Of a stretch of 64,000 bases of DNA, positions 18,627-57,190 are shown one piece after another; position 1 is the first letter of the stretch; every line of letters begins with the position of its first letter. The notes beneath the pieces were generated by a model. It was not told the DNA's origin. It saw only the letters and a program-made list of their open reading frames with translations, and ran no database searches. This DNA is from Pseudisothecium myosuroides (taxonomy: Eukaryota > Streptophyta > Bryopsida > Hypnales > Lembophyllaceae), in the NCBI GenBank assembly GCA_951799445.1, contig OX637297.1:4216001-4280000 (forward strand), in the 5' to 3' direction. The position numbers were made by a program, and so were the translations under genes.

Positions 18627-18842
18627 TGTCGCAGTATGAATTTTTCATTTTTTCTAAGTTATCTCAAAATTGGAATGGAAACTATTAGTAGGGATCTGGA
18701 TTCGAGCAGGAGGTGACAAAAAACTAGAAATAAGCTGAGGAATGGAAATAGTGGACAATCCGGATATAATCAGAAGCTAACACAGATTAGGTCAGGAACG
18801 GATTAGTTCAGGAACGGATTAGGTCATGATGACATATCAAGC

Positions 18843-18850
18843 TATAAAAA
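18843..18850 (+). promoter_or_regulatory. TATA box of the G1 gene
   Basis: TATAAAAA, about 290 bp before the ATG at 19136. The reverse copy G1' has TATATAAG at the matching place (45657-45664). Confidence 0.65.
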
Positions 18851-19135
18851 GGCTGAGCAGTCCAGTTGCCACTCTTTTCAAAACTCTGTTCGCTAAAGGC
18901 GTTCCTTTGCGCGTACTTAGCTTTCTTCTTCAGCACTTTGCTTTTTTTGTTTCTGTGAGTGTAACTGTGAGCGTGTTAGTGTGTTAATGTGTAGGCGTGC
19001 GCAGTGCGTTAGTGTGTGCTGCAGGTTTTGTGATTTTCCGATTGAGATCGGAAGAGAGAAGGTGAGGAACGGGACGTGCGGCTAGGAGAAAGTGAGGTAG
19101 TATCGGAGAGGATCCAGTTAGCATAGTTGGTGTCC

Positions 19136-20869
19136 ATGCCTCACCTTCGTAAGTGTAGACCAGGACCGTCCAGTTCCTCTGCAGCCGTAGTTAAGCTCCG
19201 GAAAGTGATTTCGGTCATCCCCTCCACAGAGGAGGAGAAGGCCAACCTCATGGAAGATCTCGCCGCGATGGATTGCGCAGGGTTGATAGATAAACCCTGT
19301 GGATTTAGAGAGGAACGGATGGTGAGGGAGTTATTAGGGAAATTGTCGAATCAGTTCGACAATACCATCCGAGGGATTTCGACCCTTTGGACGGAAGAGA
19401 TGTGGAGAGCAGTGTACGACTTCCGAGTGGGAGGTTTAGGAATGGCCAGCTGGAAGGACGAATACATCCGAGGGAAGTTTTGGAGTGCCGTAGACTCGAA
19501 GGATGGGCATGCGGTCTTAGATTGTTTAGAAGACCAGCACCGCAACCTCCTTCAGTTTTTGGTTCCGATCATCCACCCGGAGAAGCCGACAAGGGTGACA
19601 ATAGCCCTCGGTAACTTCATTTTTGGAGCCCTGAGCGGGGAATGGAAAGTGGATTGGGCCCGGATCTTTTCCGATTTGGTGGCCCAGCTGGTTACCAAGA
19701 TTGGAAGAAGTAGGGCCACTCCACTGTGTCCCTATATCTTCCATCTCTACAAGCACCACCAACTTCTCACTAACACGGAGGAGAAGGAATGGAAGACTCA
19801 GGAGGTTCTCTTGAAGTATGGAGAGTCGAAAACGGATGACAAACCGGAAGACGTATCCGGATCTGATACAGAGGAAGAAGAGGAGGAGGAACTGCACAAG
19901 CCGCTGACCAAGCAACAGAAGACGACGCCTCCTTACGGGAGAGGAACACCTCCGGGTGACAAATCCGCTCCAGGGACGGGACCGAAAGTTGAAAAGACGG
20001 TCTCCTCAGAATCGGATCCCAATGATCCGTTCAATCAGTTGATCACCATCCTCTGCAACGTGCGAGCGGATTGGGAGATCAAGAAAATGATCCTCGCCAA
20101 GATCGGAAAGTTGGTGGATGTGCCAGTGAGCAGCAAACGTGTAGCGAAGGTGGTGGAGTGCATCACCAGTCCGGATGAAACTCGGAAGCAAGAAGTAGAG
20201 ATTTGCCGACTTCAGGAGGAGGTTGATACGTTGAAGGTGGAGATTTTCACCTTCAAGGAGGACATAACTACCACTCAGGAGATGGCGGAAGAGACTTGGA
20301 AGGTAGCAGAGCGGGTGAAGGCCACTTTCGGAGAAACCAGAACAGCCGTCGCCAAGGTGAAGTTATTTGATGAGGGAGTGCTCAAGGATAAGAAGCTATC
20401 TGGTTCCCGGATGGTTCGGATCCTATTTGACCTCACCGAGCAGGTAGAAGCGGTAATGGTGGAAGCACGAGAGGCAGCAAACCAGATGGAGGTGAGCAGC
20501 CAGAAGTTAACCGGATCCATGTTTTCCAGGGAGATCCATCTTTCGGAACTCTCGCTACCGGAATCATTTCCGGTTGGTGGCAATCAAAGGGAGGGCAAGG
20601 ATCAGACTCCCCAGTCAAAGAAGAGTGGACGGAAACTCGCGGCACCCATCAACCTAGATTCATCGCCAGGGTCTGATGTCCCTGAATGTGAAACCGGGGA
20701 GCGGAATTGGAACTTGGTTGAAGTTTTCGAGCAGTTGGGAACGGATCCCAAGAGTCCTACACTGGATCAGGGTTTAGATCAAGGCCTGGATCAAAGTATG
20801 GACCAAGGTATAGACCAAAGTGTGAATCTAGATACAGATCAAGGAGTAGATCAGGGTATGGTAGAATAG
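19136..20869 (+). CDS. G-element protein, 577 aa, intact
   Basis: Start ATG 19136 (TCCATGCC) is shared with the other copy; upstream in-frame codons are not ATG. Residues about 30-220 form the domain conserved in all G elements, with motifs NQFD.TIRG, GMAS, FL.PI..PEKPTRVT, FGAL and PY.FHLY. Then come an acidic run (DTEEEEEEEL), a Lys/Pro-rich region, and long heptad-type helices (about 330-470, e.g. CRLQEEVDTLKVEIFTFKED). The tail repeats LDQG-type hexads. No zinc knuckle, protease, RT or integrase motif is visible. It may play a Gag-like or DNA-binding role, but that is inference. I know no named family for it. Confidence 0.8.
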   Translation: MPHLRKCRPGPSSSSAAVVKLRKVISVIPSTEEEKANLMEDLAAMDCAGLIDKPCGFREERMVRELLGKLSNQFDNTIRGISTLWTEEMWRAVYDFRVGGLGMASWKDEYIRGKFWSAVDSKDGHAVLDCLEDQHRNLLQFLVPIIHPEKPTRVTIALGNFIFGALSGEWKVDWARIFSDLVAQLVTKIGRSRATPLCPYIFHLYKHHQLLTNTEEKEWKTQEVLLKYGESKTDDKPEDVSGSDTEEEEEEELHKPLTKQQKTTPPYGRGTPPGDKSAPGTGPKVEKTVSSESDPNDPFNQLITILCNVRADWEIKKMILAKIGKLVDVPVSSKRVAKVVECITSPDETRKQEVEICRLQEEVDTLKVEIFTFKEDITTTQEMAEETWKVAERVKATFGETRTAVAKVKLFDEGVLKDKKLSGSRMVRILFDLTEQVEAVMVEAREAANQMEVSSQKLTGSMFSREIHLSELSLPESFPVGGNQREGKDQTPQSKKSGRKLAAPINLDSSPGSDVPECETGERNWNLVEVFEQLGTDPKSPTLDQGLDQGLDQSMDQGIDQSVNLDTDQGVDQGMVE

Positions 20870-20981
20870 ATAGGAATTATTTTTGTAAAGTGTATGATAG
20901 GATGGACAGGATCAGATGAGACCGAAAGTCCCGCGCAGATTTTTTGGGAGACTTTTTTGCCTTTGTAGATATTATATTGTG

Positions 20982-20989
20982 TATAAAAG
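20982..20989 (+). promoter_or_regulatory. Second TATA box after the ORF, with GC hairpin
   Basis: TATAAAAG lies about 110 bp after the stop codon and is followed by CAGTCCCTGCGGGGG. G1' keeps the same order (TATATAAG, then the GC hairpin) near 43609. This is where an LTR promoter would sit if the gene lies in U3. Confidence 0.55.
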
Positions 20990-21636
20990 TCAGTCCCTGC
21001 GGGGGAGGCTGAGAGTCTTTTTCACCTGAATTTTCTTGCATATTCTGTTTGCTTCTTGTTGTGCATCTTTCCTGAGTGTGGGAGGGTTGTATGGTGAGGA
21101 GTTAGGAGGGTGCTGGTTGTTTTGGGAGTGATTTCTCCCCTTGATGTTACTGTTTTGATCTTATGTGCAAGTGAGTGGGTACTAAAAGAGTTGGGAGTGG
21201 ATTTCAGTTCCTCAGCATTTCTAAAGTTTAGGATTCCGGGTGAGAAAGCCGTTGTTAGGCTAGGTGGATAGGGAGGGATTCCCTAGTCGCGATAGAACTC
21301 CTGGGTGGGAAATCCGGTTGAGTGTCCGATCTCCTGGAAGGTCTCGCTATCCTATTTGGTAAACAGAAGAACTTTAGTTAATGTTGGAATGGACGGATGT
21401 ACTTGTAACTGCCTAACTTCGCATGGAGGGAACTTGGTGTCAAGGTCGTAGTATGAGAGGATCGTAGGGGGGATCTTTGTGTGACCTACGATCCAGATGG
21501 CTATCCGGGTGGATGTGAGAGATCAAACCGGATCCAGAGTAGCTTAGGAGATTAGGGGGTAAGACAGTGGGTCTTCAACCACTATAAGTTACGAAAGGAG
21601 TGGTGGGCCTACTACTTTCAAATGCAAGAAGCGACC

Positions 21637-21657
21637 CCTCTGATGGTAAAACAGAGG
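21637..21657 (+). other. Conserved hairpin CCTCTG-N9-CAGAGG near the 3' end of G1
   Basis: Perfect 6-bp stem with a 9-nt loop ATGGTAAAA. Counterparts lie at 25648 and 42924 (minus), 53085, 56477 and, shortened, 57453. In G4 one pair changes from T-A to C-G on both sides. Confidence 0.6.
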
Positions 21658-22015
21658 CTAAATTAAAGCGGACTAGAGTAAGAGTGCATGTGAGTGCACC
21701 GGAACAAATCGGTCTAGGGGAGTGCCAGGATCGTAAGTTGGAGGATCTGGGGATCGTGATAGTTTTACAGGACCGGATAGCTGGACAGACTAGAAGAGAT
21801 AGGGAGAGGTTTGGTTTTAAGTTTTCTATGTTTTGGTGTTCCGGATTTAGACGTAGGACCGGAAAGTGGAATTTGGGTACTGACTGAGTTCAGATACTAA
21901 ATAAGGCTGGATACTTCACAGGATCTCGTGGGTTTGATCTTTAGAGTCACTTTGTTATGCTCTAGAGTGATTTTTGGAAGTATAACAGGGAAATTGCTTA
22001 CTCTGTGCTGCGACA

Positions 22016-23644: not shown

Positions 23645-25386
23645 AAGGAGCTCATCTTAGGGGTCCCAAATCAGTTTGAGTTGACAGTGAGAGGTAGGCC
23701 CGTAGCTTGGACGGAGGACGTTTGGGCGGAAGTGTATGAGTTCAAGAAGTCCGAACACGGATAATTAGCCTCCCGAATGGAAAAGTACTCAAACGGAAAG
23801 TTCCGAAATCCAGTCAATGCAAAGGATGGATACGCCATTAGTGAGTGTAAGAATGATAGGCATAAAGGGGTGATGGAATGTATGATTCCGCTTTTGTATC
23901 CAAAAATGCCTACCCGGGTTACAGTTACGGTGGGTAACACCATCTTCGAAGCTTTGGAAGATAGGGCAGTGCATTGGAATAAGGTTATCGTGGGTGTAGT
24001 TATGAAATTGGTGGACCATGTGTCAAAGGACAAGTATAGTCCGCTCAGCTTGTACTTGTTCCACCTCTATCACCAAAACGAGGTTTTGAATAGCCATGAG
24101 GTGATAGCGTACAAAACCGGAATCCAATTCCTAAAGTATGGCCTTACAAATGAAGCTGCGCGGGAGCAGCAGGAGTTGGAAGAGGAAGAAGAGCAGGAGG
24201 AACTGGTCGACAAACGTGACAAGCGGAGGAAGTCAACCAATCCGGCTGCAAGAGGAAAGCTTCCGGAATCGGAAACTAGAGAACCCAGCCAGCCTCCGAC
24301 GAAGGAAGAACCCACGGATTTCTTTGTTGCTGGAATCGAGTAGGTACGGCAGGCTAAGCAGTTCCACAACAACTTATCGGATTTTGTATTCCAAATCAGT
24401 GACAAGTTGAAGGTAGAAGCGTGGAGCTGAAGAATATTTTGGAGGAAATCTGGCGACGACCAAGTCCGGATGTGCTGTACAAGAAGGATGAGCAGATCTG
24501 GAACTTGGAAAAGGAGCGGGATGACTTTCAAGCCCGTGCACTGTTTGCTGAAGGAAATGCAGCAGTATCAAGACAGAAGGAGACGGAATCTATCCAACTC
24601 GTCCGGAACTTGACGATGTTGGTTTCAGAGCCAACAAATCAGGTGGTCAGAGTCAAACTCTTCAACGACTGAATGATCAGTGAAGGACATCTATCCGAAT
24701 CAAAAGTAGTGACAATTATGGTCGACTTTCAATCCCAAATGGAGGCGGTGTTGAAGGAAATGGGTAAGCTTCTGGGACACCTTGATCCGGATAAGGCAAT
24801 GAATTTCACGTCGATCCTGGAAGTTCCTGGATCCAAGTTCCTGAATACTCTGACCAAGCAAGGTCTGGGGTCCATTTTGCAAACACCTGTAGTTCCGTCC
24901 TTGAGTCAAGTGCAGCTACAACAGACGAGTTTGAAGGAGGTAGGCGAACTTAGGAGGGAGACAAGTGTGAAGACGGGTCTGGGGCCACTACAAACTTCTG
25001 TCCCGCCAATGGTTCCGTCAACTCGAATTACTGGGACAGCATCATTGATGCTACCTGGACGGGAAGTCCGCAGTGATCTGGTTGAGCGGATGACGGCCTT
25101 ACCAAATCCGGCTCGGACCCATTCGGAAAAGTTCACTTGCATGCAGCAGCCTTTGCCTAAACGGGACAATGTGATGATAGACCTTGGAGAGCCATCGCCG
25201 GATAAGGAGTCTAAAGTTGAGATGATCAAGAAATCCGACAAGGGGGATTTCGATTCCAAAACCGAGATGGAATCGGATGAGGAGGCCTTGCCCCCACCAA
25301 TCAAGCGCCCGATGCAAACCCGGGCAGCAGGCAAATTGATTTCGGTGAAGTCCACAAGCAAGCCACTTGCAGGTCTAGATAGCTAT
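23645..25386 (+). pseudogene. G2, G-element gene remnant, 5' truncated
   Basis: Homology to the G4 protein starts at the LGVPNQFELTVRG block, so about 70 N-terminal codons and the whole promoter are missing. The conserved motifs GNTIFEALED and SLYLFHLYHQNEVL, an acidic run (ELEEEEEQEE), DKRDKRRKSTNP, the helix with ARALFAEGNAAVSRQKETE and the tail with SDEEALPPPIKRP are present. It is broken by TAA about 23763, TAG about 24341, a frame slip near 24420 and TGA 24670. At 25387 the coding tail is cut by the exact terminus (TGTCGTATGC) of a reverse-oriented G element. Confidence 0.75.
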
Positions 25387-26240
25387 TGTCGTATGCGTAA
25401 TCTAGGCGTAAGTATCTTTAACACAAAAACGTGGTAAGATGACACAAGTTATCATCCCAGGAGATTTTGGATGTTATCTCAATCTTATTTTTCCTGAACC
25501 TTTAAGTTTCCGGATTTTGAACAACCCAAGAGTGGTCCGTCCAACTTACAAACTCTCTTCCAGAACTACTTTCTTTCTGGATTCAATCCTGGATTCGGCT
25601 CTGTTTGGTCTTCTGGTTCCGACTCTCTAACAAATTGGTTTTTGGTACCTCTGTTTTACCCTCAGAGGGTCCTCACTTGCTCTTTTCGAGGGGTAGGGAA
25701 CTTCACCACTCTGAACTTGACACAAACTCTATTAACACAAACAAAACACAACCCAAGAATATAACTAGTTGAGTAAGCAGGGTGGCATCCTCACAACCTC
25801 CCGGATGGCCTATCCAGAAAGCTAGTCACACAAGGCAGCGTTAGGTCCTCCTTACTACAACGACGGATACCGGACTTCCGGAACTAAGGATTAACGTCCT
25901 AACTCTCGACTGCTCCTGAGTGGCAGACCTTCCGGTGGTTGGAAATATTCCTCTGGTGGCTGCTGACTTCCGCTCAAAACGACTATTGGATTCCAGACTA
26001 GCTTCCTGGTTTCTTTCGGACCTCCACTAGATCACCGTTCCAGCAAATTAAAGGCACCACGCATATTACCTCACTTGCGAATCTCAAACTACTCCATAAA
26101 ATACACTTAGCCTTAATCCGGCAACCCAAGTATCCGGACTCTTCCCTTACACACTCTCACTTACACATCTACACAAGTGACTATAGACGCGATACGCAAG
26201 AGAATAATCCACCATGTGCTTTCCAGAATGCTTCATTTAC
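25387..26240 (-). mobile_element. G2b, 3' end of a reverse G element, truncated
   Basis: The reverse complement matches the last ~860 bp of G5 (55900-56759), including the terminus CGTACGACA, the CCTCTG-N9-CAGAGG hairpin (25648-25668), CGTTGTAGTA and GAATAATCC. It starts exactly at the element end (TGTCG). The other end breaks off near 26235-26250, where R1 begins without its own terminus. A deletion probably fused the two. Confidence 0.8.
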
Positions 26241-27446
26241 TAAGGATGGGTAATCAACTAGGTTCTTAGCTTTTATCCACTTTTTTAATATAAGGGGGTG
26301 TTGTAAGCGTGGTCCATTGTGCCTTCCAAGCAATGGATCTTTTGCTAATGTTTCCTAAGTGTCCTAGATGGGCAAAAAAAATGTCTAGAGATGCATGTGA
26401 TGACTTCCAAGCTAACTGCCAATGATCAGAGGTGATGGTGATTTAACGGTGAAATTCTACCGTACTAACTATCTATCCTATGTCGAGTGTAGACTGGATA
26501 GTTGGCGCCATATCTAACAACCTTAACTAACTGAACTGGACCCCCTAGGTTCCTTCCATGAACCCCCAAGGTTAATTCTGAGTTTTAACTTCTACTCTAT
26601 GTTTTTTACTTCCCAAGGTTAATTTGAACTTTTGACTTCTACCACTACGGTTTAACCTCTAAATTCTACTCTACGGTTTTACTTCTACATTAACTCTAGA
26701 GTTTACCCCTTGGATTCCACTTTATGTTTTCACTATTTCACTCTTGGTTTTTTCTTCTAAACTAACTCTAAAATTTACCCTCGGAATTTAACTCTATGTT
26801 TTGATTCTTAACTCTAACTTTTTACTTCCAAAACTAATCATAGTTTTTAACCTCTAGGTTTGATCCTACGTTTTTACTTTTTACTTTAGATTTTCTACTT
26901 CTAAGAACCAACTCTAAAATTTAACTTCTACTTCTAACTTTGATTTTTACTATCTAATATTTACTCCAAGTTTTAACTTCTAAGTTTTATCCCAAATTTT
27001 AACCTCTAATCTTCACTCTGACTTTGAATTTCTAACTTCAAAATTTTAATTCCTAAGTTTAATCCTAGCTTTTAACTTCTAAATTTATTTCTATCTTTTA
27101 ATTTCTACCTCAAAGCTTAACTCCTATTTCTAACTCTAAAATATTCTTTCTAAATTGACTTGAAATTCTACTTTCTAAGTTTATCCTAAATCTTTACTTT
27201 TAATTTCTCCTTTTTATTCGGGTTTTTGACTCCTAAATTAACCCTAACCTTTTTACTTTTCAATTTCACTTTAATTTTCACCTTCTAGATCTAATTCTAA
27301 ACTCTACTTCCCAATTTATGAATTGCTAAATCTAAACTTCTACCTTCTGCTAATCGGATTTTTGCTAATCAAGGACTAAGGTCCAATCAAGAAAAGATCG
27401 AGAAGTAATTTGGGAAAAAACACCGAGGGTTAGGTTAATTACTTAC

Positions 27447-27509
27447 CTCATCGCTGCCGGTGTTGGAAATAACTTCATCCACGTCCGCATGCACACCCTC
27501 ATGCTTCAT
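27447..27509 (-). CDS. Conserved 63-nt first coding exon of R1 with splice donor
   Basis: It reads from the ATG at 27509 (context ACCATGA) for 21 codons, beginning MKHEGVHADVDEV, acidic throughout, and ends GAG directly before GTAAGT, a strong plant donor. The equivalent exon in R2, R3 and R5 has the same length and position. The product beyond the exon is unknown because no acceptor can be assigned. Confidence 0.55.
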
Positions 27510-32300: not shown

Positions 32301-32308
32301 TATATAAG
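32301..32308 (+). promoter_or_regulatory. TATA box of R2
   Basis: TATATAAG in the setting AAACCTATATAAGGGCCC, about 1.29 kb from the left terminus. The same box is kept in R1, R3 and R5 on the minus strand. It sets the direction of transcription of the R family. Confidence 0.65.
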
Positions 32309-42567: not shown

Positions 42568-45500
42568 TGTCGTAGCACAGAGCAAGGAATTTCCCCGTTA
42601 TACTCCCAAAAATCACTCTAGAGCATAATAAAGTGACTCTAAAGATCGAACCCACCAGATCCTGTGAAGTATCTAGCCTTATTTAGTATCTAAGCTCAGT
42701 CAGTATCCAAATTCTACTTTCTGGTCCTCGATTTAAAACCGGAAACACCATGACATAGAAAACTACGGTCAGACCTCTCTCTCTTTCCGGTTTGTCCAGC
42801 TATCCGGTCCTGTAAAACTACCACAATCCCAAGTTTCTCTAACTTCTGATCTTGGGCACTCCTCTAGACCGATCCGTTTTTGTCCACTCGCATACACTCT
42901 TACTCTTATCTAGTTTAGTTTTGCCTCTGTTTTACCATCAGAGGGTTTGCCGCTTGCTTTTGAGAGTGGCAGGCCCGCCACTCCTTCCGCCACTCCTTCC
43001 GTGACTTATAGTGGTTGAAGACCCACTATCCTATTCTCATGTCTCCTACACTAATCCGGATCCGATTTGGTCCTTCACAACAATCTAGATAACTCGCCGG
43101 ATCACAGGTCACACAAAAAAAACCCGTACGACCCTCTCATACTACAACGACCTTGACACCAAGTTCCCTCCGTGCAAAGTTAGGCGGTTACAAGTATATC
43201 CGTCTGTTCCATCATCAACTAAAGTTCCGTTTACCAACTAGGACAGCGAGATCTCACAGGAAATTGGACACTCAACCGGATTTTCCACCCAAGAATTCTA
43301 GCGCGACTAAGGAATCCCTCCCTATCCGCCTAGCCTATCAACGGTTTTCTCGCCCGGAATCCTAAACCTTAGAAGTGCTGAGGAACTGAAATCCACTCCC
43401 AATTCTTTTACTATCCACTCACTTGCACATAAGATCAAAAAAATAACACCAAGGGGAGAAATTACTCCCCAAAAACAACTTGCACCTTCCTAACTCCTCA
43501 CCATACAACCCTGCCACACTAGGGAGAGACACACAATGAGAAGCAAATAGAAAATACAAGAAAAATTCAGGAGAAAAGACTCTTCACCTTCCCCGCAGGG
43601 ACTGGCTTATATATACAAAATAAATTACAAAGGCAAAAAGGTCCCCAAAAAACCGCGCGGAACGTTTGCTCTGATCCTATCCTGTCAGACCGGATCAACA
43701 TCCAGTCCGGTCTACCCTATCCTATACTTTACAAAAATAATTCCTACCTACTCTGCTACCTCCAGATCCAACGTAGGACTTCTGGGATCCGTTTCCAATT
43801 CGTTGAAGACTTCCTCCAAGTTCCGGTTCCGCTCCCCGGCTTCACGATTCGGGGTGTCGGACCCTGGTGATGAATCCAATAGAATTGTTAAGGTAGGTTT
43901 CCGTCCATTCTTCTTCGACTAGGGAGTCTGATCCTTACCTTCCCTCTGATCAGCCTCAACCGGAAATGACTCCGGTAGCGAGATATCCAAAAGATGGATT
44001 TTCTTGGAGTACATTGATCCGGTTAGCTTCTGGCTGCTTACCTCCATCCAGTTTGTTGCCTCTTATGCTCCCACCACTGCTGTTTCCACCTACTCGGTAA
44101 AGTCGGTTAGGATCCAAACCATTCGGGAACCAGATAGTTTCTTCTCCTTAAGTACTCCCTTGTCAAATTATTTTGCCTTGGCGATGACTGTTCTGGTCTC
44201 TCCGAAAGTGGCCTTCACCATCTCCACTACCTTCTGAGTCTCTTCCGCCATCTCTCGAGTGGCGGTCATGTCTTCCTTGAAGGCGAAAATCTCTGCCTTC
44301 AACATATTGACCTCTTCCTGAAGTTGGCGAATCTCTGCTTCTTGCTTCCTAGTTTCGGCCGGACTGGTGATGCAATCCGCCACCTTTGCCAGTAGCTCGC
44401 TATCTGCAAGCACATCCACCAACTTTATGATCTTGGAGAGGATTATTTTCTTGACCTCTCAATCCGCTCGCACGTTGCAGAGGATGGAGATCAACTAATT
44501 GAATGGATCATTGGGATCCATTTCCTTGGAGACCGTCTTCTCAACTTCTGGTCCCTTCTCCGGAGCAAACTTGTTGCCAGGAGGTGTTCCTCTTCCGTGA
44601 GGAGGCGTCATCTTTTGTCGCTTGGTCGATGGCTTCTGCAGCTGCTCCTCCTCCTCTTCCGTCTTTGGGTCGGATCCGGATCTGTCCTCTGTTTCCGACT
44701 CTTTGTACTTTAGGAGAACTTCCTAAGTCCTCCATACCTTCTCCTCTATGTTAGTGAGGAGTTGGTTGTGCTTGTAGAGATGGAAGAAATAGGGACACAG
44801 GGGAGTGGCCCTATTCTTTCCAACCCTGGTAACAAGCTGGGACACTAGATCGGAAAAGATCCGGGCCCAGTCCGCTTTCCGGTCCTCGCTCAGGGCTCCA
44901 AAAATAAGGTTGCTAAGGGCTATCGTCACCCTCGTCGGCTTCTCCGAACGGAGGATCGGAATCAAGAACTGGAGAAGGTTGTAGTGTCGGTCGTCTAAAC
45001 AATCTAAGTCCACATATTCGTCCTTTGAGTTCACTGCTCCCCGAAACTTCCCTCGGATGAATTCATCCTTCCGGCTTGCCATCCCTTAACCTCCTAACTG
45101 GAAGTCGTAGACCGCTCTCCACATCTCTTCCATCCAAAGGGTCGGAAGCCCCCGGATGGTGTTGTCGAACTGATTCGATAATTTTCCTAGTAACTCTCTC
45201 ACCATCCGTTTGTCCTTAAATCCCCAGGGTTTATCTATCAACCCTAGGCAATCCATCGTGGTGAGGTCCTCTATGAGCTGGGCCTTCTCTTGCTCCATGG
45301 AGGGGATGATTGGAATCACCTTCCGGAGCTTAACCACGGCTGCGGAGGAACTGGACGGCCTTGGTCTACTCTTGCGAAGTTGAGGCATGGACACAGACTG
45401 GACTCGCCGGATCCTTTCCGAAACTACCTCACCTTCTCCTAGCCGCATGTCCCGTTCCTCACTTTCTCTCTTCCGATCTCAACCGGAAAACCACAAACCC

Positions 45501-45918
45501 TGCAGGGACGGAAGTCTAACCTTGCAGCACACTTTAACACATTCACGCACTTTGCACACTCACTGAAAATCAAGGCGCTGAGGAGAAAACATAGTACCCG
45601 CGGAGGAGCATCTCAGCAAACAGAGTTTGAAAAGGGTTGCAACTGGAAAGGTCAGCCCTTATATAGTCTCAGGGCTCCAGATGGATCATCATGACCTATT
45701 CCGTTCTAGCCCTAATCCGCTCCAAACCTAATCCGCGTAAGATTCTATGTCCGTCCATTATTACTTTGGACTGGATTAAATCCGGGTGGTCCACTACTTC
45801 CGTTCCTCTGCTTATTTTTAGTTTATCATTACCCCTTAGTTGGATCCGGATCCCTATTAATGATTTTTGTTCCAATTTTGGAGTAACTAAGAAAAAACCA
45901 AAAATTCACACTGCGACA
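42568..45918 (-). mobile_element. G1', second complete G1-type element, TSD CTTGG
   Basis: Plus-strand ends are TGTCGTAGCACAG and CACACTGCGACA, 3351 bp, with exact TSDs CTTGG at 42563-42567 and 45919-45923. It is the reverse-oriented homologue of G1 over its whole length, roughly 80-85 percent alike. It has both TATA boxes (about 45657 and 43609) and the hairpin at 42924-42944. Confidence 0.88.
43748..45388 (-). pseudogene. G-element gene of G1', broken
   Basis: ATG 45388 (TCCATGCCTCAAC) matches the G1 start and the stop TAG is at 43748-43750. The N-terminal domain is clear (VVKLRKVIPIIPS, NQFDNTIRGLPTLW, GMASRKDEFIRGKF, PYFFHLYKHNQLLTN). A TAA at 45083-45085 replaces a Leu codon (TTA in G1). 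Further frame changes lie near 44720 and 44430-44540. The coiled-coil part (IRQLQEEVNMLKAEIFAFKED) survives at 44168-44422. Confidence 0.8.
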
Positions 45919-45923
45919 CTTGG

Positions 45924-46888: not shown

Positions 46889-47559
46889 ATTGTTGTGGGA
46901 GCACGAAATGTAAGGATAAGGCAAGTTAGCTAGTAATATAGAGAATGGAGTTAGAAATGGTAAAATTTTTAGCTTTTTGTAAGGCTTAAATACGAGTTTT
47001 ACCAAAATTAAGATTCCTCTATTATAGGATAATTGTAAACAGATAAATAGGTTAAGAAAGGGAATTAGAATTTCCTGAATAGACCAGAAAACTAGAACCG
47101 GATACGGAACCGGGTATCGAATCAGAATTTGTTCAATATACCAGGGCCGAGTATGAACATGTCCTGGAGCATACCAGAGAGCCTCCAGGAAGCCGTTAGC
47201 GCAATCCTGCAATCCAGCGGCTCTATCAAAAGTTAGGGATGACCGTTAAACGGTCACAATCTTCCGAGATTGCGGCGGAAACGGGAAACCCTAAACGGTT
47301 GGGAACGACTGGATGGGGAAAACCTAGGGGTCGGCTCTCTCATTCCCATTTTTCATTTGGAAAGACTGAAGAATCCTTGGAGCGCTTAGAGTGATTGTGT
47401 TGGGAGTCAGGTTGTGAAGAGAGAAAGAGAACTCTGAGTTTCCGGACCCGGTAGAGAGGATTAGTACTGGCGCTTGGTCGGAAAGATCTATAGCTTAGCA
47501 TTTTTGAGGGACTATGTGAGGTTTGTGCTTGAGAGAGAGTGGCAGAGCTTTGGAGTGCA

Positions 47560-49395
47560 ATGGTGAAGGGTGAAGGTAGTGGAGCTGCCGCATTGAAGTT
47601 CAAGAACATCCTCCCGGTTATTCCGAAAGATGAGGGGCATCAAAAGCAGTTGGAGGAGGACTTAGGTCAAATGGGATGCGCGGGTTTCCTACGCGGACCT
47701 TGGAAGTTGAGAAACGAGGAGATGATCCGGGAGCTGACGAAGGATCAGTCGAATGAGTGGGACAAGACTTCTTGGGCACTTCCCAATAGTTAGACCATCG
47801 AAACCTGGAAACGGGTTTACGATTTTCCTCGTCCAGGAGAGGGTATGGCTTCCCGAACGCTTAAGTTTGCGGAGGGTAAGTTTTTTGACACTCCTCACCA
47901 CAATGATGGGTACACAGTCGCGGACTGCAAGGATACCAGAGAGAGAAGGTTGCTAGAGTTTTTAGTCCCAATCCTGTATCTGGAGCGGCCAACCCGGATC
48001 ATAGTAACTTGGGCAAATATAATATTTGGGGCATTGAGCGGAGAGAGGAAAGTGTTCTGGGCAGGGATTATGAGGGACAGAGTAGCAAAAATGGTCTCGT
48101 CTTTAGGGAATACTAAGGCAACCCCAATTGGACCATTTATCTTTCACCTATATGAGCATCTAGGAACCCTTAGAGGCCCTGAGAGGACTGCCTATAAGGC
48201 TGCCGCTACCCTCATGAAGTTGTATATCACTCTAACTGGAGAGGAAGAGAGGGAGAAAGATGAGGAGTCAGGGAGAGAATCATCAAAGAGGAAAGAAGAA
48301 TCCTCAAAGAAAGTCCCAGCCTCAGAGAAGAAGAAAGGACCGAAGAGTAAGAGTCGGGAATCCCCGGAACCGAAAGTTCCATGGGATGACTCGCTGGGGA
48401 GGATAATTGAGGATCTGGGAAGGATTCGAGAGGAGATAGATGCCGAGAGGGGAGCAGTCAAGAACATGTGTGGGCTGCTTGGTGGGATCGAGGTGTCTAA
48501 ACTCGCGGAGAAAGTAGAGGGTTCACTTCGGGATAGAGAGTCCCGGAAGTGGGAAATCCGGGTTAGGGATCTGACCAATCAAAATCAAGAACTAACCCGG
48601 AAACTAGAGGAGAGTAAAGGAGGAAGGAAACTTTTCCCAGAGGCTGAGGAGACTCTCCGGAAGGTCAAGGCTTTTGTACCAAATTCCGGGAATGTGATTA
48701 ACAAAGCCAAATTGTTTGATGACGAAATCCATAAGTCCGGGACTGAAGCAACAACTAAGTCAGTGTTGGTTTTGGCCGAATACTCGGACGTGATGGAGAA
48801 GTTCATGTACGAGATCCGGGATGTTCTCCGGGAGTCGGGACTATTTCCGGGCTCTAAGAAGGTGCCCATGTCGCCGCCCGCAAACATGAGGCCAAAGGAA
48901 AAGGCGAAGGGAGAAAAGACACCCGCCAAAGATAGTTCTAAGCGAAAGTCAAAAGGAGGGGAAGAATCAGGACATGGATTCGGATCCAAGGAGAAGGTTT
49001 AGAAGTCAAGATCCAAACTCGGAACACCCCAGAGCAAGGATTCGAAGCCATCTCCAACGATACCCAGCACGACGAAGAAGAAGACAACTCCAAAATGAGC
49101 AAGGGAGGTGTCCCCTGTGAGTTACCATTCCAAGGAAGACGAATCACCAAGTAATTCAGTGAAGGAAGGCAACCAGTCCGGATCCGGTTCCCAGTCCGAG
49201 TCACATCCGGGCACAAAATCTGAAGAAGAGTTGGAACTGGAGGCTATCTCCCCTTCGCGGTTCAAGGGTAAATCTCCCTTCGCGTCTAAAGGGTAGACAA
49301 CAAAACCACCTAAACCGTCTCCAAGTAGGAAACAGTCGCCCCGGAAAGGAGCCGTCAAGCAAGAGGAACCTTCCCCGAAGCGTACTAAGAAGTAG
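47560..49395 (+). pseudogene. G-element gene of G3, four in-frame stops
   Basis: One frame runs from 47539/47560 to TAG 49393-49395, about 610 codons, with stops TAG 47791, TAG 49000, TGA 49096 and TAG 49294 but no frameshift. In G4 and G5 the start is ATGGC(G); here it reads GTGGCA at 47539, so the original start may be lost and ATG 47560 is the first available. N-terminal domain motifs: GMASRTLKFAEGKFF, FLVPILYLERPTR, NIIFGALSGERK, PFIFHLYEHLGTL. Then a strongly basic region (RESSKRKEESSKK), coiled coil, and a Ser/Lys-rich tail ending KRTKK. Confidence 0.8.
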
Positions 49396-49901
49396 TTAGG
49401 TAGTTTCTTGGGTTGACCCTGGCATGGTTAATATTAAAACTCAAGTTTTTGATAGGTAGAAAGCAGTTAGTTAGCTTCTTTTCAGTTGAATGCACCTGGA
49501 CTTCACTTTCCGGGTTTTTAGGATCTGAGATCCACATTTTGCGGATCAGATGGGATGGTAGGAAAGTCAACGTGGAGGATAAAGAATGACAGCTATCATT
49601 CTCTGGTCCTCTGCTTTTGATTCCCAAAGGTCTTTAGGGTTCTCGGGATGTTTGGTAATTAGGGGCTGACTTTGGTTGAATGCCCCGGGTATTCTTATAC
49701 ATGTGTATTTCCAGTGTTTTGCAAATTGAATTCAGATTTCCACTTTACAAGTACTGGTCTGAAAAGTCTCAGTCTATGTTGGTATGCCATCAGTTTGTTA
49801 AGCATTGGTAGTGCGGGTAGCTGGTTTGCAAGTGTTGGAGCAGAATAGATAGCCCCCGGATTCTGTCTAGATCCGGTTCCGGGAGTATTAGGAGTTGGTT
49901 T
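49396..49901 (+). other. 3' non-coding part of G3 before the G4 insertion
   Basis: Non-coding. It holds TTTCCGGG and other CCGG-rich words and ends at the TSD ATGAG (49902-49906). Confidence 0.5.
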
Positions 49902-50311
49902 ATGAGTGTGGGAGCACGGAAACTTAGAGTAAAGGAAGATAGCATAGAAGTAGGTTAGGAGTTAGTCAAAAATATCAAAATTTTGGTAGGAAAAAGGAAA
50001 TTAGATCCGGATACGGACAAATTCCGGATAGTTAGAATCCGAGATCCTGATCCTGTAACGGATCTTAAAATCCGAGTTAGGTCGGATCGGAACGAGCTAC
50101 GAAATAGGTATCCGACCTACGCCGCTAGGGAACCGTTACGGAAACAGACCTCTTTCCGTTCGCCAAGGGGAACGGTCGGCAGCTCGACTAGTACTTAAAC
50201 CCTCGCCATACCTAATCTTCCTCATTCTTCATTTTGCTGATTGTCTTGCGCACTTAGCTGAGAGAAAGAGTGGTGAGTTAGAGATCGTGACAGGGAGAGA
50301 CTGGTGAGGTC

Positions 50312-50326
50312 GGTGCCGATTGCACC
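50312..50326 (+). promoter_or_regulatory. Leader hairpin GGTGC-CGATT-GCACC before the G4 start
   Basis: A 5-bp stem about 23 nt before ATG 50349. The same 15 nt plus neighbours occur in G5 at 53690-53704, although flanking leader sequence differs. Confidence 0.5.
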
Positions 50327-50348
50327 GGATTTAGTTGTCGGTGTCGGT

Positions 50349-52249
50349 ATGGCGGAGTCCAGCAAACCAGTAGCGCGTCGACCCTCTGTCACAGCTCGGA
50401 TAGTTAGACCAGCGATTCCCGCCGACCCAGAGCACCGGAAGGAGTTAGAGACAGATCTGACCCGGATGGGGTGCGTAGGTTTAATCCACTGACCGTGGAA
50501 TGTTAAGAACGTAGAGATGCTGGAGCAGCTGATCTCGGGAGTTCCGAATCAGTTCGAGTTGACTGTGAGAGGCCAACCCGGAGCATGGACGGCGGATGTA
50601 TGGGCTGACGTATACGGGTTTGGGAAGGACGGATCCGGATTAGGTTCTCGGGTAGAGACGTACGGGATTGGGAAGTTCCACAATCCGATTACCACTAAGG
50701 ACGGATACCCAGTGAGTGACTGTAAGGACGCTAGGCAGAAACGGGTGTTGGAGTTTTTGATTCCGATCATGTACCCGGAAAAGCCCACCCGAGTTACAGT
50801 TACGGTGGCCAACACTATCTTTGGGGCTTTAGAAGATAAGGTAGTCCACTGGGGGAAAGTTCTAGACGGGATAGTAAAGAAGCTCGTGTTGCACGTCGGG
50901 AAGGGGAAGCCGAGTCTTCTCAGCCCGTACCTATTTCACCTGTATCACCATCAGGAGGTGCTGACGAGTGAAGAGATGATGATTTACAACACCGGATTGG
51001 AAATCGTGAAGTACAGTCTCACGCACGAGATTCCACCGGATCCTCCGATCGAGGGAGAGGAGGAGGAAGAAGAAGAAGACGATGAAGAGGAAGAAGAACC
51101 GCAGCAGCAGGACCTGGTCGACAAGAGAGAGAAGAGAAGGAAGTCGACCAATCCGAACTCAAGGGTGGAACAGTTGACCCCGAAAAAGGGAGAGCCGAGT
51201 CGACCCCCGGAATCAGAACCGCAGTCGGACTTCTTCGACGCCGGAACGCAGTGGATGGAGGAGGCCAAGCACATGTATTTCGGCATGTTGGACATGATCC
51301 TGGCGATTGCTGCAGAGTTGAAGGTGGAGCCGGAGGATATCGTAAATCAGATCCGGAAACTACCGAGTCCGGATCTGATTCGTGAAAAGGACGAGCGGAT
51401 CAAGAGCTTGGAGAAGGAAAGGAATGGCCTGTTAGGTCGGGTGAACTGGGCGGATACGGATGCCGCAGTTGCACGGCAGAAGGAGGCGGAAGTTCTCCAA
51501 CTCGTCCACAATCTGACTGCGTTGGTGGAGCAGCCTGCGGAAGCTGTGGTCAAATCCCGACTCTTCACCAATCAGCTGAGTGGCATAGGCCACTTATCCG
51601 GGTCCAAGGTAGTAACGATCTTGGTGAACTTCCAGGCCCGGATGGAAGGTATTCTGAAGGAGATGGCGCAACTGTTGGGGCACCTGGACCTGAACAAGCC
51701 CTTGGACTTCACCCACTTTCCGGAGCTGCCCAACGTCGACTTGTTGAAGACACCTCAGAAGCCGGGGTCAGGGATAAGTCTACCGGCATCCCCAAGACCT
51801 ACTCCAGGTCAGGCACGGATCCAGACAAAGACCACGAAGTTCGGCCAGACGAGGAGTGTCCAGTCGATTCCGGTAGGGGAAGGGAGTTCCGTTCCGGCAT
51901 CCGGAACATCCGTCCGGAGCGATTTAATCCAACGGATGGGGGCCTTGTCAAACCCGGCTCGGACCAATCCGGTCGACTTACTCACATGCAGAAGGCATCG
52001 CCCAGGAGGAATACAACTCCGATTCAGCTGGACGATTCGCCAGAGAAAGAGACCAGAGTGGAGATGATCCAAGCATCCGAAAAGGGGGAATTTACTTCCG
52101 GCGATGAGACGGAATCGGATGACGACCCGCCGCCGATCGAGCGGAAGATTCCGACCCGGGCTGCAACGAAGTCTACTCCACCGAAAGGAAGCAGGAAACC
52201 ACCTGCAGGGCCGAGTAGCAGCGCGAAGAAATCCAAGCGGGGAATGTAA
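50349..52249 (+). pseudogene. G-element gene of G4, one stop and one frameshift
   Basis: ATG 50349 (MAESSKPVARRPS) matches the G5 start. TGA 50490 sits where G5 has CGT in the K-R-P-W motif, so CGA to TGA is likely. The frame then runs clean to about 51985, where a one-base slip moves it into the frame ending at 52249 (KKSKRGM). Domains: conserved N-terminal domain (NQFELTVRG, YPEKPTRVTVTVANTIFGAL, PYLFHLYHHQEVL), Glu/Asp run, DKREKRRKSTNP basic motif, coiled coil (KDERIKSLEKERNGLLGRV), SKVVTILVNF, then an acidic/basic tail. Confidence 0.82.
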
Positions 52250-53280
52250 TTAGTATATTTGCAGTTTTAGGATTTTTAATCTGGAGCAGATTTTCCGTGC
52301 GTGGGGCCCGGTTCCGGATTCTTAGGAGTAGTTGACTTTGAACTTTCCGGATATTACGGTTGATTACTGATTGGTCATCTGGATTTTCAGGTGTTCTTTT
52401 TTTGGCTTTTTGTTTGGGTTTTAAGTGGAGGGCAGCTTGTTGCCCTTTCATTCCAGCCTTGTCCATTTTGTGTGCATTAGTTTATGTTCATATTCTCTTT
52501 TCTCTAATCTGAGCCACTAAGTGGACATTCGGATTTTTGGCTATATGTGCGTTTTCTTGAGTCGTTTATGAATGGTGAAAGTGTGAGAGAGGGCGGATGA
52601 GGGGGAATCCGGGTTGAGAATTAGTTGGACCTGATTTGAGCGAGTAAGTTTGTGAGGACACTTTACTAGACTTGTGAGTAAGGACTTGTGCGTGGTACCT
52701 TTAAATTGCCGTAACAGTGATCCGGTTCTAAGGAGTGGTGCGGATGCGAGTCCGGAATCCAGGGAGGGTTCCGAGCGGAGATAAGCGACCGCCAGCGGAA
52801 AATCCCCACTCACCGGAAGGTCTGCCAACCATAGGATCAGTCTGGTAGATAGATGCACGAATCTCTTCCAGTTCCGGCTGTCTTGATCTGTCGTTGTAGT
52901 AAAGGCAGAAGGATACAATTCTGAGTGACCTGTTCTCCGGGCAAGCTACCCGGGGAATTGTGAGGATCGTTACTTTCTCTACTCTACAATAAAAACTCGG
53001 TTAGGATTGTTTTGTGTGAAGTTTGGTGTAGAGAAATAGATGTCTATGAGTGGTTCCTACCCCTCTAAAGATAAAATGCGGACACCCTGAGGGTAAAACA
53101 GGGGAATAGAAAACCAGTTGAAGTCGAGAAGTGAGACTCGGAATCCGGATCATATTGGAAACCGGAAAGAAATAGATCCGGATTGGAATCCGGAAGACCA
53201 TTGTGTAAGAAATAGGAAAAGAAAGAGGTGTGGCTTGGGGTTTTGTTGTTTGGATTACAATCCGGAAACTCCCTAGCTTG
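52250..53280 (+). other. 3' non-coding part of G4
   Basis: It contains a GGGCAG..TTGCCC hairpin near 52430, CGTTGTAGTA, and the covarying hairpin at 53085-53103. It corresponds to 55630-56670 of G5 and ends at the TSD CTAAA (53281-53285). Confidence 0.5.
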
Positions 53281-53727
53281 CTAAATGTGGGAGTACGTAT
53301 CATCCGGAAAGTCCCAATTAGCAATTTAGTGGAGATAAAAGTAGCAGAACTTTTTCAATTTTTGCATTTAAATACCAAGTTAGGACTTAGATATTAGAAA
53401 TAGAAATTAGTTTCTAGGTAGAAAGGATAAAACTCTAAATAGGTTACGCAGGCTGCCGGAAACCGTAGCCGGAAAGTTCCGGAAAGTTCCGGATCGTAGG
53501 GACCTACCGCCTAGGTTCCGGCTAGGGAACTTACGGGAACGTTTTTGGCGGCGGGAACTTAGGGTTCCGACAGGTACTTAAACCCCACCGCCAGCCTCAT
53601 TCAGTCTCTTTTACCCGTGTTCTTCCACGGTGCGTTAGAAGAGAGAAAGAGTGGTGAGTTAGGGCGTGTTAGGGAGAGAAAGGGAGGAAGGTGCCGATTG
53701 CACCGGATTGTCCTAGCAGTCAGTGAG

Positions 53728-55626
53728 ATGGCGGAAGTGAGTCGATCCCGGAGGTCGGTAGTGACAGCCCGGGGCGTACGTCCAGTTGTCCCATCGGATC
53801 CGGAGCGCCTGAAGGAGTTAGAAGAGGACCTAGAAATCATGGGGTGTTTAGGATTGGTAAAACGTCCATGGAACGTCCGGAGTGAAGAGATGATTGATGA
53901 GCTGGTTTCCGGAGTAGGTAATCAGTTCGATTTGACGATTAGGGGTCGATCTAGGGCCTGGACTCCGGAGTTGTGGGCGAAGGCATACTTTACGCCGAGC
54001 AGGGGTTCCGGAATGGCGTCCCGGACGGATACTTACGCCGTGGAGGTATTCCGGAGTCATGCGGATTCCAAGGAGGGACACACCGCGAGTGATTGTAAGA
54101 GTCCACGGGATGGGCAGTTGTTAGCATTCCTCATCCCTATCTTGTATCCGGAAAAGCCCACCCGGATTACAATGACCGTGGCAAACACCATTTTCGGAGC
54201 GCTGGGAGATAGAGAGAATCCGGCTCCCAGGCCGGTCAGCTGGGGAGTGATCATTCACTCCGTAGTGGAAAAGTTAGCGGTCAATATCGCGAACAAGAAG
54301 TCAAGTCCGATTAGCCCCTATCTTTTCCATCTGTATCACTCCGAGGATGCACTGGCCGGACCGGAAATGACCATATACCGGAAGGGCGAGAATTTGTTGA
54401 GGTATGGACTTCCCGCAGAAGATGAACCGGATGAGCTCGAGCCGGAAGAAGAGGAACCAGAACCGGAGCAGGCATCACCAAACGTTGGAGGGACGCGCCG
54501 GAAATCGACTGATCGGGGTGCGCGGGGGAAGCAAGAAGCCGAGGAGGAAGAGAAGCCCCGAGAACCACTTCCGGAAACAGATCAGCTAGAGGCCACCATC
54601 AAATGGCTGTTAGCTACCCGGGCACAGAATGAGCGGATGTCGGCGCTGATCCGGCAAATGTGCGAGAAATTGGGTGTGAAGGAAGAAACCCAAATCCTGG
54701 TGGCGTTGGCGGAAAGGCCAGATCCGGAAGCGGTGAAGCAGCTGGAGGACCGGATTCTAACCTTGGAGCAAGAACGGGACCGGTTTCGAGAACAAGCTGC
54801 GTGGTCGGAGAAGGAGAGGATGGCCGCTGAAACAAAAGAGGGAGAAGCCCTCGATCTGGTCCGGAATGTCAGAAGTCTGTTTGACACTCCGGCGGATATT
54901 CTTGCCAGAGCTACACTCTGGAATAATCACATGGTGAAGGATGGTCACGTGGCGGGATCGAAGGTGGTGAGCATCCTTGTGGATTTTGAAGTCCGGATTG
55001 AGGGAATGCTCAAGGAAGTCCGGCAACTGTTGGGAAACTTGGATCCGCTTGAGGGGTTAGACCAAGGCCTTTTTGACCTAGGTCAGGATCTCCAAGAAAG
55101 AGGGGCACAGAACCAGCCTTCTCCGGCAAAGAGCAAGACAATCGCCGGAACGTCGCAAGCCGGAACAGCATCGGCCCAGAAGAGGAGGTCGCTGGTGAAG
55201 CAGTTTGCGGCCTCCACTCCAGTAAAAGATGTTGTCTTAGGCGTCCCAGTCGGAAGAACTGCGTCCGTAGCAAATGTGTTCCCCGACAGACCGGTGGGTT
55301 CTACTTTCCGGGAACCAGCTTTACCCGGAACGGTGTTGAATCCAGCCCGGACGGATCCGATGAGTTTCACCCACATGCTCCAGCCCTTTCTCCAGACACC
55401 GCCACCGTCCCAGCTCATCGATCTTACTGTTCCGAAACCAAGGGGACGACGGCTACTGAGCGAGACGGACCCGGAATCGGAAGAGGGGGATACGACTCAA
55501 TCGGAGGAGGAAGAGTTGCAGCCTCCCCGGACCAGGTCGAAGACGAAGAACACCCCACCCCAGAAGACAGGTGGATCGCCAGCTCAGGGTGGCACGTCTG
55601 TAAAGAAGGCTAAGAGAAATAAATGA
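53728..55626 (+). CDS. G-element protein, 632 aa, intact
   Basis: ATG 53728 (GAGATGGCGGAAG) fits the shared MAE start; the frame is open further up to 53617 but that region is leader-like. Conserved domain at residues about 20-250: VRPVVPSDPERLKELEEDL, MGCLGLVKRPW, NQFDLTIRG, GMASRTDTYAVEVF, FLIPILYPEKPTR, VANTIFGAL, ISPYLFHLYHSED. Then an acidic run (ELEPEEEEPEPE), RRKSTDRGARGK, coiled coils (LEDRILTLEQERDRFREQA), SKVVSILVDFEVR, and a Ser/Thr-rich tail ending KKAKRNK. No enzyme motif. Likely nucleic-acid or particle binding, by inference only. Confidence 0.85.
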   Translation: MAEVSRSRRSVVTARGVRPVVPSDPERLKELEEDLEIMGCLGLVKRPWNVRSEEMIDELVSGVGNQFDLTIRGRSRAWTPELWAKAYFTPSRGSGMASRTDTYAVEVFRSHADSKEGHTASDCKSPRDGQLLAFLIPILYPEKPTRITMTVANTIFGALGDRENPAPRPVSWGVIIHSVVEKLAVNIANKKSSPISPYLFHLYHSEDALAGPEMTIYRKGENLLRYGLPAEDEPDELEPEEEEPEPEQASPNVGGTRRKSTDRGARGKQEAEEEEKPREPLPETDQLEATIKWLLATRAQNERMSALIRQMCEKLGVKEETQILVALAERPDPEAVKQLEDRILTLEQERDRFREQAAWSEKERMAAETKEGEALDLVRNVRSLFDTPADILARATLWNNHMVKDGHVAGSKVVSILVDFEVRIEGMLKEVRQLLGNLDPLEGLDQGLFDLGQDLQERGAQNQPSPAKSKTIAGTSQAGTASAQKRRSLVKQFAASTPVKDVVLGVPVGRTASVANVFPDRPVGSTFREPALPGTVLNPARTDPMSFTHMLQPFLQTPPPSQLIDLTVPKPRGRRLLSETDPESEEGDTTQSEEEELQPPRTRSKTKNTPPQKTGGSPAQGGTSVKKAKRNK

Positions 55627-56476
55627 CTATCTAGGATAGCAGTAGCAGTAATTGTAGTTAGGATTCTTACCAGGATGGTAGTTCCGGAACCGGATTTTCC
55701 GGATGTAGGCCCAGTAGTTCCGGACTTTTAGGAGTTAAACGGTTTTGCAGTTTTCCCGGAACGGTCTTCAGGGCCGTTGTTTTTTTTGCTTTTTAGTTGG
55801 CCGTTGGCCGGTTTTCTGGTGGCCGTTTGGGCTGCCTTTTTGTGGGTTTTTAAGGGCAGGCCGGTTTGTTGGCCTGTCATTCCTTTTTCCTTGTTCATTT
55901 AATCTAAAGCATTCAGGAAAGCACTCGTTGGATTATTCTCTTGTGTATCGCATCTATAGTCACTTGTGTGGATGTGTAAGTGAGAGTGTGCAAGGGAGAG
56001 GAGTCCGGATTCGTGGACTGCCGGATTAGGCTAAGTGTGTCTTGCAGATGAGTTTTTAGACTTGCGCAGTGAGAAAGTGGCGCCTTTAAAACGCTGGTAC
56101 GGTAATCCGGTGGAGACCAAGGAGTGGTCCGGAAGCTAGTCCGGAATTCGCAGGGACGGTTCCGTGTGGAGATAGGCAACCGCCAGAGGAATATTTCCAC
56201 CCGTCCGGAAGGCTAGTCAACCTCATGAGCGGTCGAGAGCTAGGAAGTCATTCCCTTAGTTCCGGAAGTCCGGTATCCGTCGTTGTAGTAAGGAGGACCT
56301 AACGCTACCCTGTGTGACCAGCTTTCCGGATAGGCCATCCGGAATGTTGTGAGGAGGCCACCCTGTTTATTCAACTAGATTTATTCTTGGGTTGTGTTTT
56401 GTTTTATGTTATTAGAGTTTATGTCAGATACGGAGTGGTGCAGTTCCCTACCCCTCGGAAAGAGCAAGTGAGGAAC

Positions 56477-56497
56477 CCTCTGAGGGTAAAACAGAGG
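56477..56497 (+). other. Conserved hairpin CCTCTG-N9-CAGAGG of G5
   Basis: Loop AGGGTAAAA, about 260 bp before the 3' end. Equivalent hairpins occur in G1, G1', G2b, G4 and G3. Confidence 0.6.
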
Positions 56498-57190
56498 TAT
56501 CGAAAACCAACTTGTTAGAAAGACGGAACCGGAATATTGGATAGGGCCGGATCCGGAAGAGAATCCGGAAAGGAAGTAGTTCCGGAAAAGTGTTTGTGTG
56601 TTGAAAGGACCCCTCTCAAGGTGGTCAAAGTCCGGAAACTTAGAGGTCTCGAGAAACTAATTTTGAAGCAACGTCTGGAATCTCCTGGGACGATAACTTG
56701 TGTCATCTTAGCACGTTTTTGTGGTTAAAGATACTTACACCTAGATTACGCGTACGACACTAAAACATACTAGAATCTCCTGGGACGATATTTTGTGTTA
56801 TCTTACTATCATTTTGGTATTAAGGATACTTACGCCTAGATTGAGCGTACGACAATGAGAACTAGCGTACTAAAGGGTAGTTTCATCTGCTGATTTTCCT
56901 TGAGATTCTTCTGAGTGAGATAGCCATTCCTAGATTGGGTGAGTTCTTCAGGTTGAAGTACGAATGCTAGTCGACGTTTGATGAAGTCTTGTTGTTTCCG
57001 GAAGAGAGGAATTGGAAGGTAGTTGGGATCTTTTAGTTAGTTGGTTACCAATTCCACTCTGGGAATTATATTTTGACAGAGTTTGTCGTTGTAGTAAGTG
57101 GGGATTGCAAGGGTTTCCTGAGTGACCTGAGGATCGGGATTAGTTTCCGGTCCGCTGTGAGGAGGAACTTGCGTCCGGGTTTGTTTGATT

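Follow-up and report, generated by a model that had tools for sequence, protein, structure and literature searches.

Solo LTRs of a Ty3/gypsy family with a gene in its LTR, and a possible VANC-like function of the encoded protein

The window analyzed here, a stretch of 64,000 nucleotides (C11:4216001-4280000 of the host genome, which comprises 387.9 Mb in 222 contigs), contains five gene-bearing units with TG...CA ends, designated G1, G1', G3, G4, and G5. We are almost certain that these units are solo LTRs of a gypsy retrotransposon whose LTR carries a gene. For the G5 family, the evidence for solo LTRs is direct, and the element is a Ty3/gypsy member by every feature tested. The source is a recently active plant retrotransposon, and the product of its LTR gene may allow it to evade host silencing. 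Contig C222 of the host genome encodes rbcL (PF00016), with a probable accD frame after it, which places the host among plants or their close algal relatives; the rbcL itself appears bryophyte-like. The whole statement, namely that the units are solo LTRs of a gene-in-LTR Ty3/gypsy family and that the protein is a VANC-like, sequence-specific DNA-binding anti-silencing factor, has in our judgment an even chance of being right.

Units in the window and the full-length element

All five units start with TG and end with CA, and each is flanked by an identical 5-bp duplication (TCACA, CTTGG, ATTGT, ATGAG, and CTAAA), as the first-pass annotation had described. An exact 5-bp pair at fixed ends arises by chance with a probability of approximately 1/1024 (4 to the power -5). 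Homology between the copies defines the ends: G1 and G1' can be aligned over their full length (81.8% over 3,266 sites), and G4 and G5 have the last ~95 bases in common. G5 lies within G4, and G4 within G3; this nesting records three successive insertions at one place. The units and their parts are as follows.

18627..22015, + strand: G1, assigned solo LTR, 3,389 bp; ends TGTCGCAG...CTGCGACA; flanks TCACA
~23646-25383, + strand: further G-type LTR gene fragment with several stops
25391-26233, - strand: further G-type LTR, truncated, 3' end of ~850 bp
42568..45918, - strand: G1', assigned solo LTR, 3,351 bp; flanks CTTGG; gene interrupted
46894-57801, + strand: G3, assigned solo LTR, outer; flanks ATTGT
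46894..49906, + strand: 5' part of G3, split by the G4 insertion
49907-56854, + strand: G4, assigned solo LTR, inside G3; flanks ATGAG
49907..53285, + strand: 5' part of G4, split by G5
53286..56759, + strand: G5 solo LTR, 3,474 bp, innermost; flanks CTAAA
56760..56854, + strand: last 95 bp of G4, the first five being the duplicated CTAAA; homologous to the G5 end
56855..57801, + strand: 3' part of G3, with the end TACAACA
~57190-57360: small palindromic insert within the 3' part of G3

Two of these G-family pieces, ~23646-25383 (+) and 25391-26233 (-), were absent from the earlier list.

The units had been described as free of pol genes, and in the window a Pfam scan and a tblastn search with the Gag and Pol sequences of the G5-family element were both empty. 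RT, integrase, protease, and gag families gave no match at E ≤ 0.05 in the 149 frames scanned among the 195 stop-to-stop frames of the window (at least 60 aa, outside the G units), and the tblastn search gave no match in the window at 1e-4. An Athila-type PBS was not found in the window with up to three mismatches allowed, which is the pattern expected for solo LTRs.

A full-length element was found elsewhere in the host genome. The G5 protein matched at least 65 scored places with 98-100% identity (2,609 first-look candidates); among the 65 scored, there were 14 same-strand pairs with a spacing of 9,458-9,467 bp, and 37 places were single. The first-pass annotation had proposed a search for two copies in direct orientation, spaced by 5-15 kb, that enclose pol and have a tRNA PBS immediately after a CGTACGACA-type end; such copies exist in the G5 family. 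The full-length element of ~12.9 kb consists of a 5' LTR with the gene, PBS, gag-pol, PPT, and a 3' LTR with the gene. In the C5 element, the pieces of which were read separately, ATGCA stands before the upstream LTR and again after the downstream LTR, CTTTTGGCGCCGCTGCCGGGGATT lies directly 3' of the 5' LTR, and GAAAATGGGGTAA lies directly 5' of the 3' LTR. The PBS and PPT of the C11 element are identical to those of the C5 element, and its flanks, at a repetitive site, match at four of five bases. A PBS after the 5' LTR and a PPT before the 3' LTR were observed in both of the full-length elements examined. We also considered that the paired copies might be tandem insertions rather than the LTRs of one element, which is contradicted by the common PBS and PPT.

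The coding part was analyzed in one element. The Gag frame (499 codons) contains Retrotrans_gag and CCHC, with Ty3_capsid slightly under its cut-off, and the Pol frame (1,380 codons) contains RVT_1, RNase H, Integrase_H2C2, and rve, in the order RT-RNase H-integrase. A single reading frame is shared by Gag and Pol, with one TGA between them, followed by CAACCA, an arrangement that we take to resemble a read-through context. The Pol stop is located 11 bases upstream of the 3' LTR, which leaves no space there for another gene. The LTRs of the C5 element show no difference over 3,481 sites, indicating that this copy is very young, and G5 of the window is 99.05% identical to the LTR of this element.

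Nine of the ten single G5-type copies examined (of 37) were solo LTRs with exact duplications, and the remaining one was a 5' LTR with the PBS after it. Ten G1-type copies elsewhere in the genome, picked for open frames from 76 scored places, were also examined: exact 5-bp flanks were observed in nine and a match at four of five bases in one, no PBS was present in any of the ten, and no full-length G1-type element was seen. G1, G1', G3, and G4 are assigned as solo LTRs by their homology and ends.

The first-pass annotation had left a choice between solo LTRs with an embedded gene and mobilization of the unit by an integrase from another element. The paired copies with PBS and pol establish the former for the G5 family. 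It is very improbable that the units are non-LTR TG...CA units moved by a foreign integrase, or cut-and-paste transposons with short inverted ends. The window without pol and the short inverted ends of G1 (TGTCGCAG/CTGCGACA) would fit such an origin, but the copy pairs enclose PBS, PPT, Gag, and Pol, with the target duplication outside the pair, and for the G5 family, which has LTR pairs and its own pol, the idea is already refuted.

The gene in the LTR

One gene of 580-670 aa had been attributed to each unit. This held for G1 and G5, which carry intact genes of 577 and 632 aa, but not for G1', G3, and G4, in which the gene is broken.

18843..18850, + strand: TATA-like box P1 in G1, upstream of the gene (found by eye, consensus match only)
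19136..20869, + strand: intact gene within the G1 LTR, 577 aa and a stop codon
20982..20989, + strand: TATA-like box P2 in G1, downstream of the gene (found by eye, consensus match only)
~47560 to 49394, + strand: gene remnant of G3
~50349-52250, + strand: gene remnant of G4, with stop and frame change
53728..55626, + strand: intact gene within the G5 LTR, 632 aa and a stop codon

Nucleotide alignment with an intact gene gave 8 stops in G1' (against G1), 11 in G3, and 1 in G4, although these counts are rough, as intact G1 itself gives 2 against G5 in such an alignment. The G4 gene also has a frame change toward its end. The G1 protein carries tandem peptide repeats of the DQG type close to its C-terminus, and the G5 protein is predicted to consist of an N-terminal domain (residues 9-231), a low-confidence linker, a helical coiled-coil-like part, and a disordered tail. 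In both G1 and G1', the gene is flanked by two TATA-like boxes, one before and one after it. The gene would belong to U3, the location proposed in the first-pass annotation, if transcription of the genomic RNA begins at P2, and to R if it begins at P1. In the former case, we speculate that an accessory gene was taken into the LTR by an upstream shift of the polypurine tract.

Comparison of the gene copies indicates that the gene was under selection. Between G1 and G1', dN is 0.143 and dS is 0.465 (ratio 0.31), though G1' is now broken, and between subfamilies dN/dS is 0.26-0.38 with dS saturated (above 2). Single-base variants among eight young G5-type copies, which were ranked by protein score and are biased toward conserved proteins, comprised 33 synonymous changes, 9 amino-acid changes, and 1 stop (ratio 0.09). 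Of the 65 listed G5-type copies, 56 have an open frame. Solo LTRs are usually regarded as inert leftovers or stray promoters. In this family, a solo LTR can hold a complete gene, one whose kind was under selection.

At least 82 protein relatives were found at E ≤ 1 (7,996 candidates scored), 78 of which make up a diverse group encoded on ENA contigs that derive from at least one organism and perhaps several. No related locus was confirmed among viral contigs (126 pattern-matching stretches) or genome contigs (15). No Pfam family was above the cut-off among those listed for the G5 or G1 protein, and a scan of the 43 relatives listed 25 of its 44 families, which were weak matches to unrelated coiled-coil and other families. 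A PDB sequence search revealed no relative, the few matches (E of 0.1 or worse) resembling chance, and Foldseek gave no match at E ≤ 0.001 against the PDB and viral models. The gene might also be passive cargo that was captured once and carried by chance, as the lack of a known function and the numerous broken older copies would allow. We regard this as quite improbable, given the dN/dS ratios of G1/G1' and, with dS saturated, between subfamilies, the open frames in most of the listed G5-type copies, and the relatives on other contigs.

The TCCGGA motif and a putative anti-silencing factor

The G5 LTR and the internal part of the element are rich in TCCGGA. This motif was picked by eye beforehand, and the counts given here are a check rather than a blind test.

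53286..56759 (G5 LTR): 28 TCCGGA sites, in coding and non-coding DNA

Counted on both strands, TCCGGA occurs 56 times in the G5 LTR against 3.4 expected from dinucleotides and 72 times in the internal locus (L011, short LTR edges included) against 6.1 expected. Against synonymous codon shuffles, the counts were 25 in pol (mean 6.5, maximum 12 of 300), 9 in gag (mean 1.5, maximum 6), and 11 in the G5 gene (mean 2.3, maximum 7). The 3' non-coding parts of G5 and G4 have 14 and 7 sites against 0.41 (maximum 3 of 200) and 0.28 (maximum 2) in shuffles, respectively. The motif is in excess in G5 and G4. TCCGGA contains one CG and one CCG cytosine per strand, and its excess needs a cause because methylation and decay should remove such cytosines from transposons.

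The density of CCGGA per kb is 25.9 in G5, 19.7 in the internal part, 15.0 in G4, 9.0 in G1', 8.4 in G3, and 7.4 in G1, against 1.2 in the rest of the window; it is 5.9-13.4 in nine G1-type LTRs and 0.0-1.4 in eleven arbitrary 8-kb stretches. Those stretches matched neither Gag nor Pol at 1e-4 and are therefore no test of other gypsy elements. In the H repeats of the window (two copies of a gene-less family), the motif is at chance; one member is bounded by TG...CA and flanked by an exact 5-bp duplication. The shuffle results were weaker for two units. None of the non-coding pieces of G3 was above every shuffle; among those of G1, only the 3' piece exceeded the shuffles, with CCGGA only (9; maximum 7 of 200), and the G1 gene was within codon shuffles for both TCCGGA (3; maximum 4) and CCGGA (14; maximum 15 of 300). 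The commonest flanks of the TCCGG core, in a post hoc reading, differ between subfamilies: TCCGGA in G5, ATCCGG and TCCGGA in G4, and TCCGGG in G3, while ATCCGG/ACCGGA/GATCCG are the commonest forms in eight of nine G1-type LTRs (L045 being the exception).

The predicted fold of the LTR protein may resemble that of VANC, and the sole structural match of the N-terminal domain is a DNA-binding protein. We consider the chance that the LTR protein acts as a VANC-like anti-silencing factor to be roughly one in two; the rating was lowered slightly because of the weak shuffle results of G1 and G3. As the anatomy of the element shows, Gag and Pol copy and insert it in the manner usual for gypsy elements. 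Under this proposal, recombination between the LTRs would leave one LTR that still comprises the entire gene and a promoter-like box. Expressed from this box, the protein would bind the motif array across the element (TCCGGA in the G5 subfamily, judging from fold and motif), counter silencing, and, by analogy with VANC, keep or make its own family expressible in trans. Placement in the LTR gives two copies of the gene per element and retains it in solo LTRs, each of which would stay a source of the factor after the loss of gag-pol. A more extended version is tentative and, on balance, somewhat doubtful: a VANC-type motif-specific factor in the LTR, an entire element filled with the motif including its coding DNA, solo LTRs as a dispersed reservoir of trans-acting anti-silencing, and co-divergence of protein and motif between subfamilies.

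Two other roles of the protein were weighed, and each seems unlikely to us. The first is an RNA-level accessory factor (for export or packaging of genomic RNA, or a Gag-like structural protein), with the motif as an RNA element. Accessory proteins of LTR elements with roles in RNA export are known, such as CERV of Cer1 (PMC10309623); the helical coiled-coil-like part and basic tail would suit such a role, and CCGGA shows a modest excess on the sense strand (53 vs 37 in the LTR, 70 vs 49 inside). However, the commonest G5 form, TCCGGA, is a palindrome, as expected for binding to double-stranded DNA, the element has a separate ordinary Gag with CCHC, and the only structural match of the domain binds DNA. 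The second, of the same low probability, is a Tat-like transcription activator of its own LTR promoter with no chromatin role. The gene and the promoter-like boxes lie together in the LTR, which has 28 motif sites in G5, but gag and pol, well away from the promoter, are likewise rich in the motif, above the codon-shuffle expectation. If the protein is VANC-like as proposed, transposon-encoded anti-silencing would extend past DNA transposons to LTR retrotransposons, the simple predicted target (TCCGGA) would make the idea directly testable, and the protein could serve as a new sequence-specific tool for resetting plant methylation.

Comparison with known systems

Meeting reports mention unpublished VANC structures (PMC8756742, PMC12859917), and no paper on the structure 9LNJ was found in the open-access literature. 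When all PDB chains were searched with a profile built from 84 sequences, five matches had E ≤ 10, and VANC21 was absent among them. In contrast to VANC of the Arabidopsis VANDAL transposons, the G gene belongs to an LTR retrotransposon, is situated in the LTR, and has no introns; no sequence similarity between the proteins was detected, the G motif is present in coding DNA too, and the anti-silencing function of the G protein is putative. A VANC-like trait, concentration of the motif in the encoding transposon, is seen in G5, its internal part, and G4, whereas it is weaker in G1, and the non-coding pieces of G3 are not beyond shuffles.

The PBS of the G5 family, which we take to be of the TGGCGCCGYTGCCGGGGA type (tRNA-Asp) as in Athila/Tat (OTA), and the 3'-end motif of the G-family LTR, like CCTGTGGGAACGATAC and presumably shared with Athila/Tat, appear to resemble those of these elements. 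A further likeness is that no chromodomain is among the Pol Pfam matches at E ≤ 0.001. The G element differs from Athila/Tat in that its internal part ends directly after Pol and the extra gene is in the LTR. A protein gene inside an LTR, as in the G units, is also present in MMTV, a vertebrate retrovirus, as sag; the protein and the host are unrelated to those of the G gene.

The open-access titles and abstracts listed revealed neither a plant gene embedded in an LTR nor a VANC-type factor of any retrotransposon, which is weak evidence of absence. Additional ORFs of plant LTR elements are in the internal region, mostly between pol and the 3' LTR, according to one study (PMC7264820), and ORF0 of Retrosat2 is upstream of gag-pol, with no placement in the LTR in the portion of its description available (PMC3485330). 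An extra gene with no known function in a gypsy-type element is a feature that the G element shares with Grande, RIRE2, and Retand, and with Retrosat2/RIRE3/RIRE8 (ORF0). The likeness to Retrosat2 extends to LTRs over 3.2 kb.

A tRNA-like string in the LTRs and the Gag/Pol border

The LTR of G5, one of the gene-bearing units read as solo LTRs of a Ty3/gypsy family, contains the string GTCGTTGTAGTA at 56279-56290, which matches the 5' end of plant tRNA-Asp. The same string is present in the units G3, G4, and G1' and in the truncated 3' end of another G-type LTR at 25391-26233 (-), while the G1 version lacks three of its bases. The tRNA matched is the same one that is suggested as the primer by the primer-binding site following the 5' LTR of full-length G5-family elements. 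In one such element, on contig C5, Gag and Pol lie in one frame, separated by a single TGA followed by CAACCA, and this arrangement may represent a stop-codon read-through site.

Copies on the host contig

The contig containing the window comprises 16.9 Mb, or 4.4% of the genome. Twenty-nine of the 76 scored G1-type places were located on it (counted by eye, with a query itself derived from this contig), as were 11 of the 65 scored G5-type places. This pile-up would fit a non-recombining chromosome, perhaps a sex chromosome.

Other repeats and genes of the window

A second, LTR-like repeat family, H, has copies of about 5 kb with the ends TGTGGGCGCTAG...TCACA.

H-family copies in the window
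26257-30624, H copy
31010-35823 (-), H copy, 5-bp duplication matching at 4 of 5 positions
37327-42380, H copy, exact 5-bp duplication ACTTG
59597-64000, H copy

No ORF of at least 150 aa was found in these copies, and CCGGA, a word frequent in the G LTRs, occurred at its chance count in the two H copies tested.

The frame at 461-1588 (-) matches DUF7869 (E 3.5e-6), as does a second scanned frame (E 1.8e-36); the former is probably a gene of another mobile element. A frame at 15100-15786 matches NIF, the NLI-interacting-factor-like phosphatase (E 6.7e-8). The tandem arrays at about 3389-5764, with a unit of about 167-174 bp, are satellite-like. Inspection by eye also revealed a near-perfect, MITE-like palindrome at about 57190-57360, inserted into the 3' part of G3.
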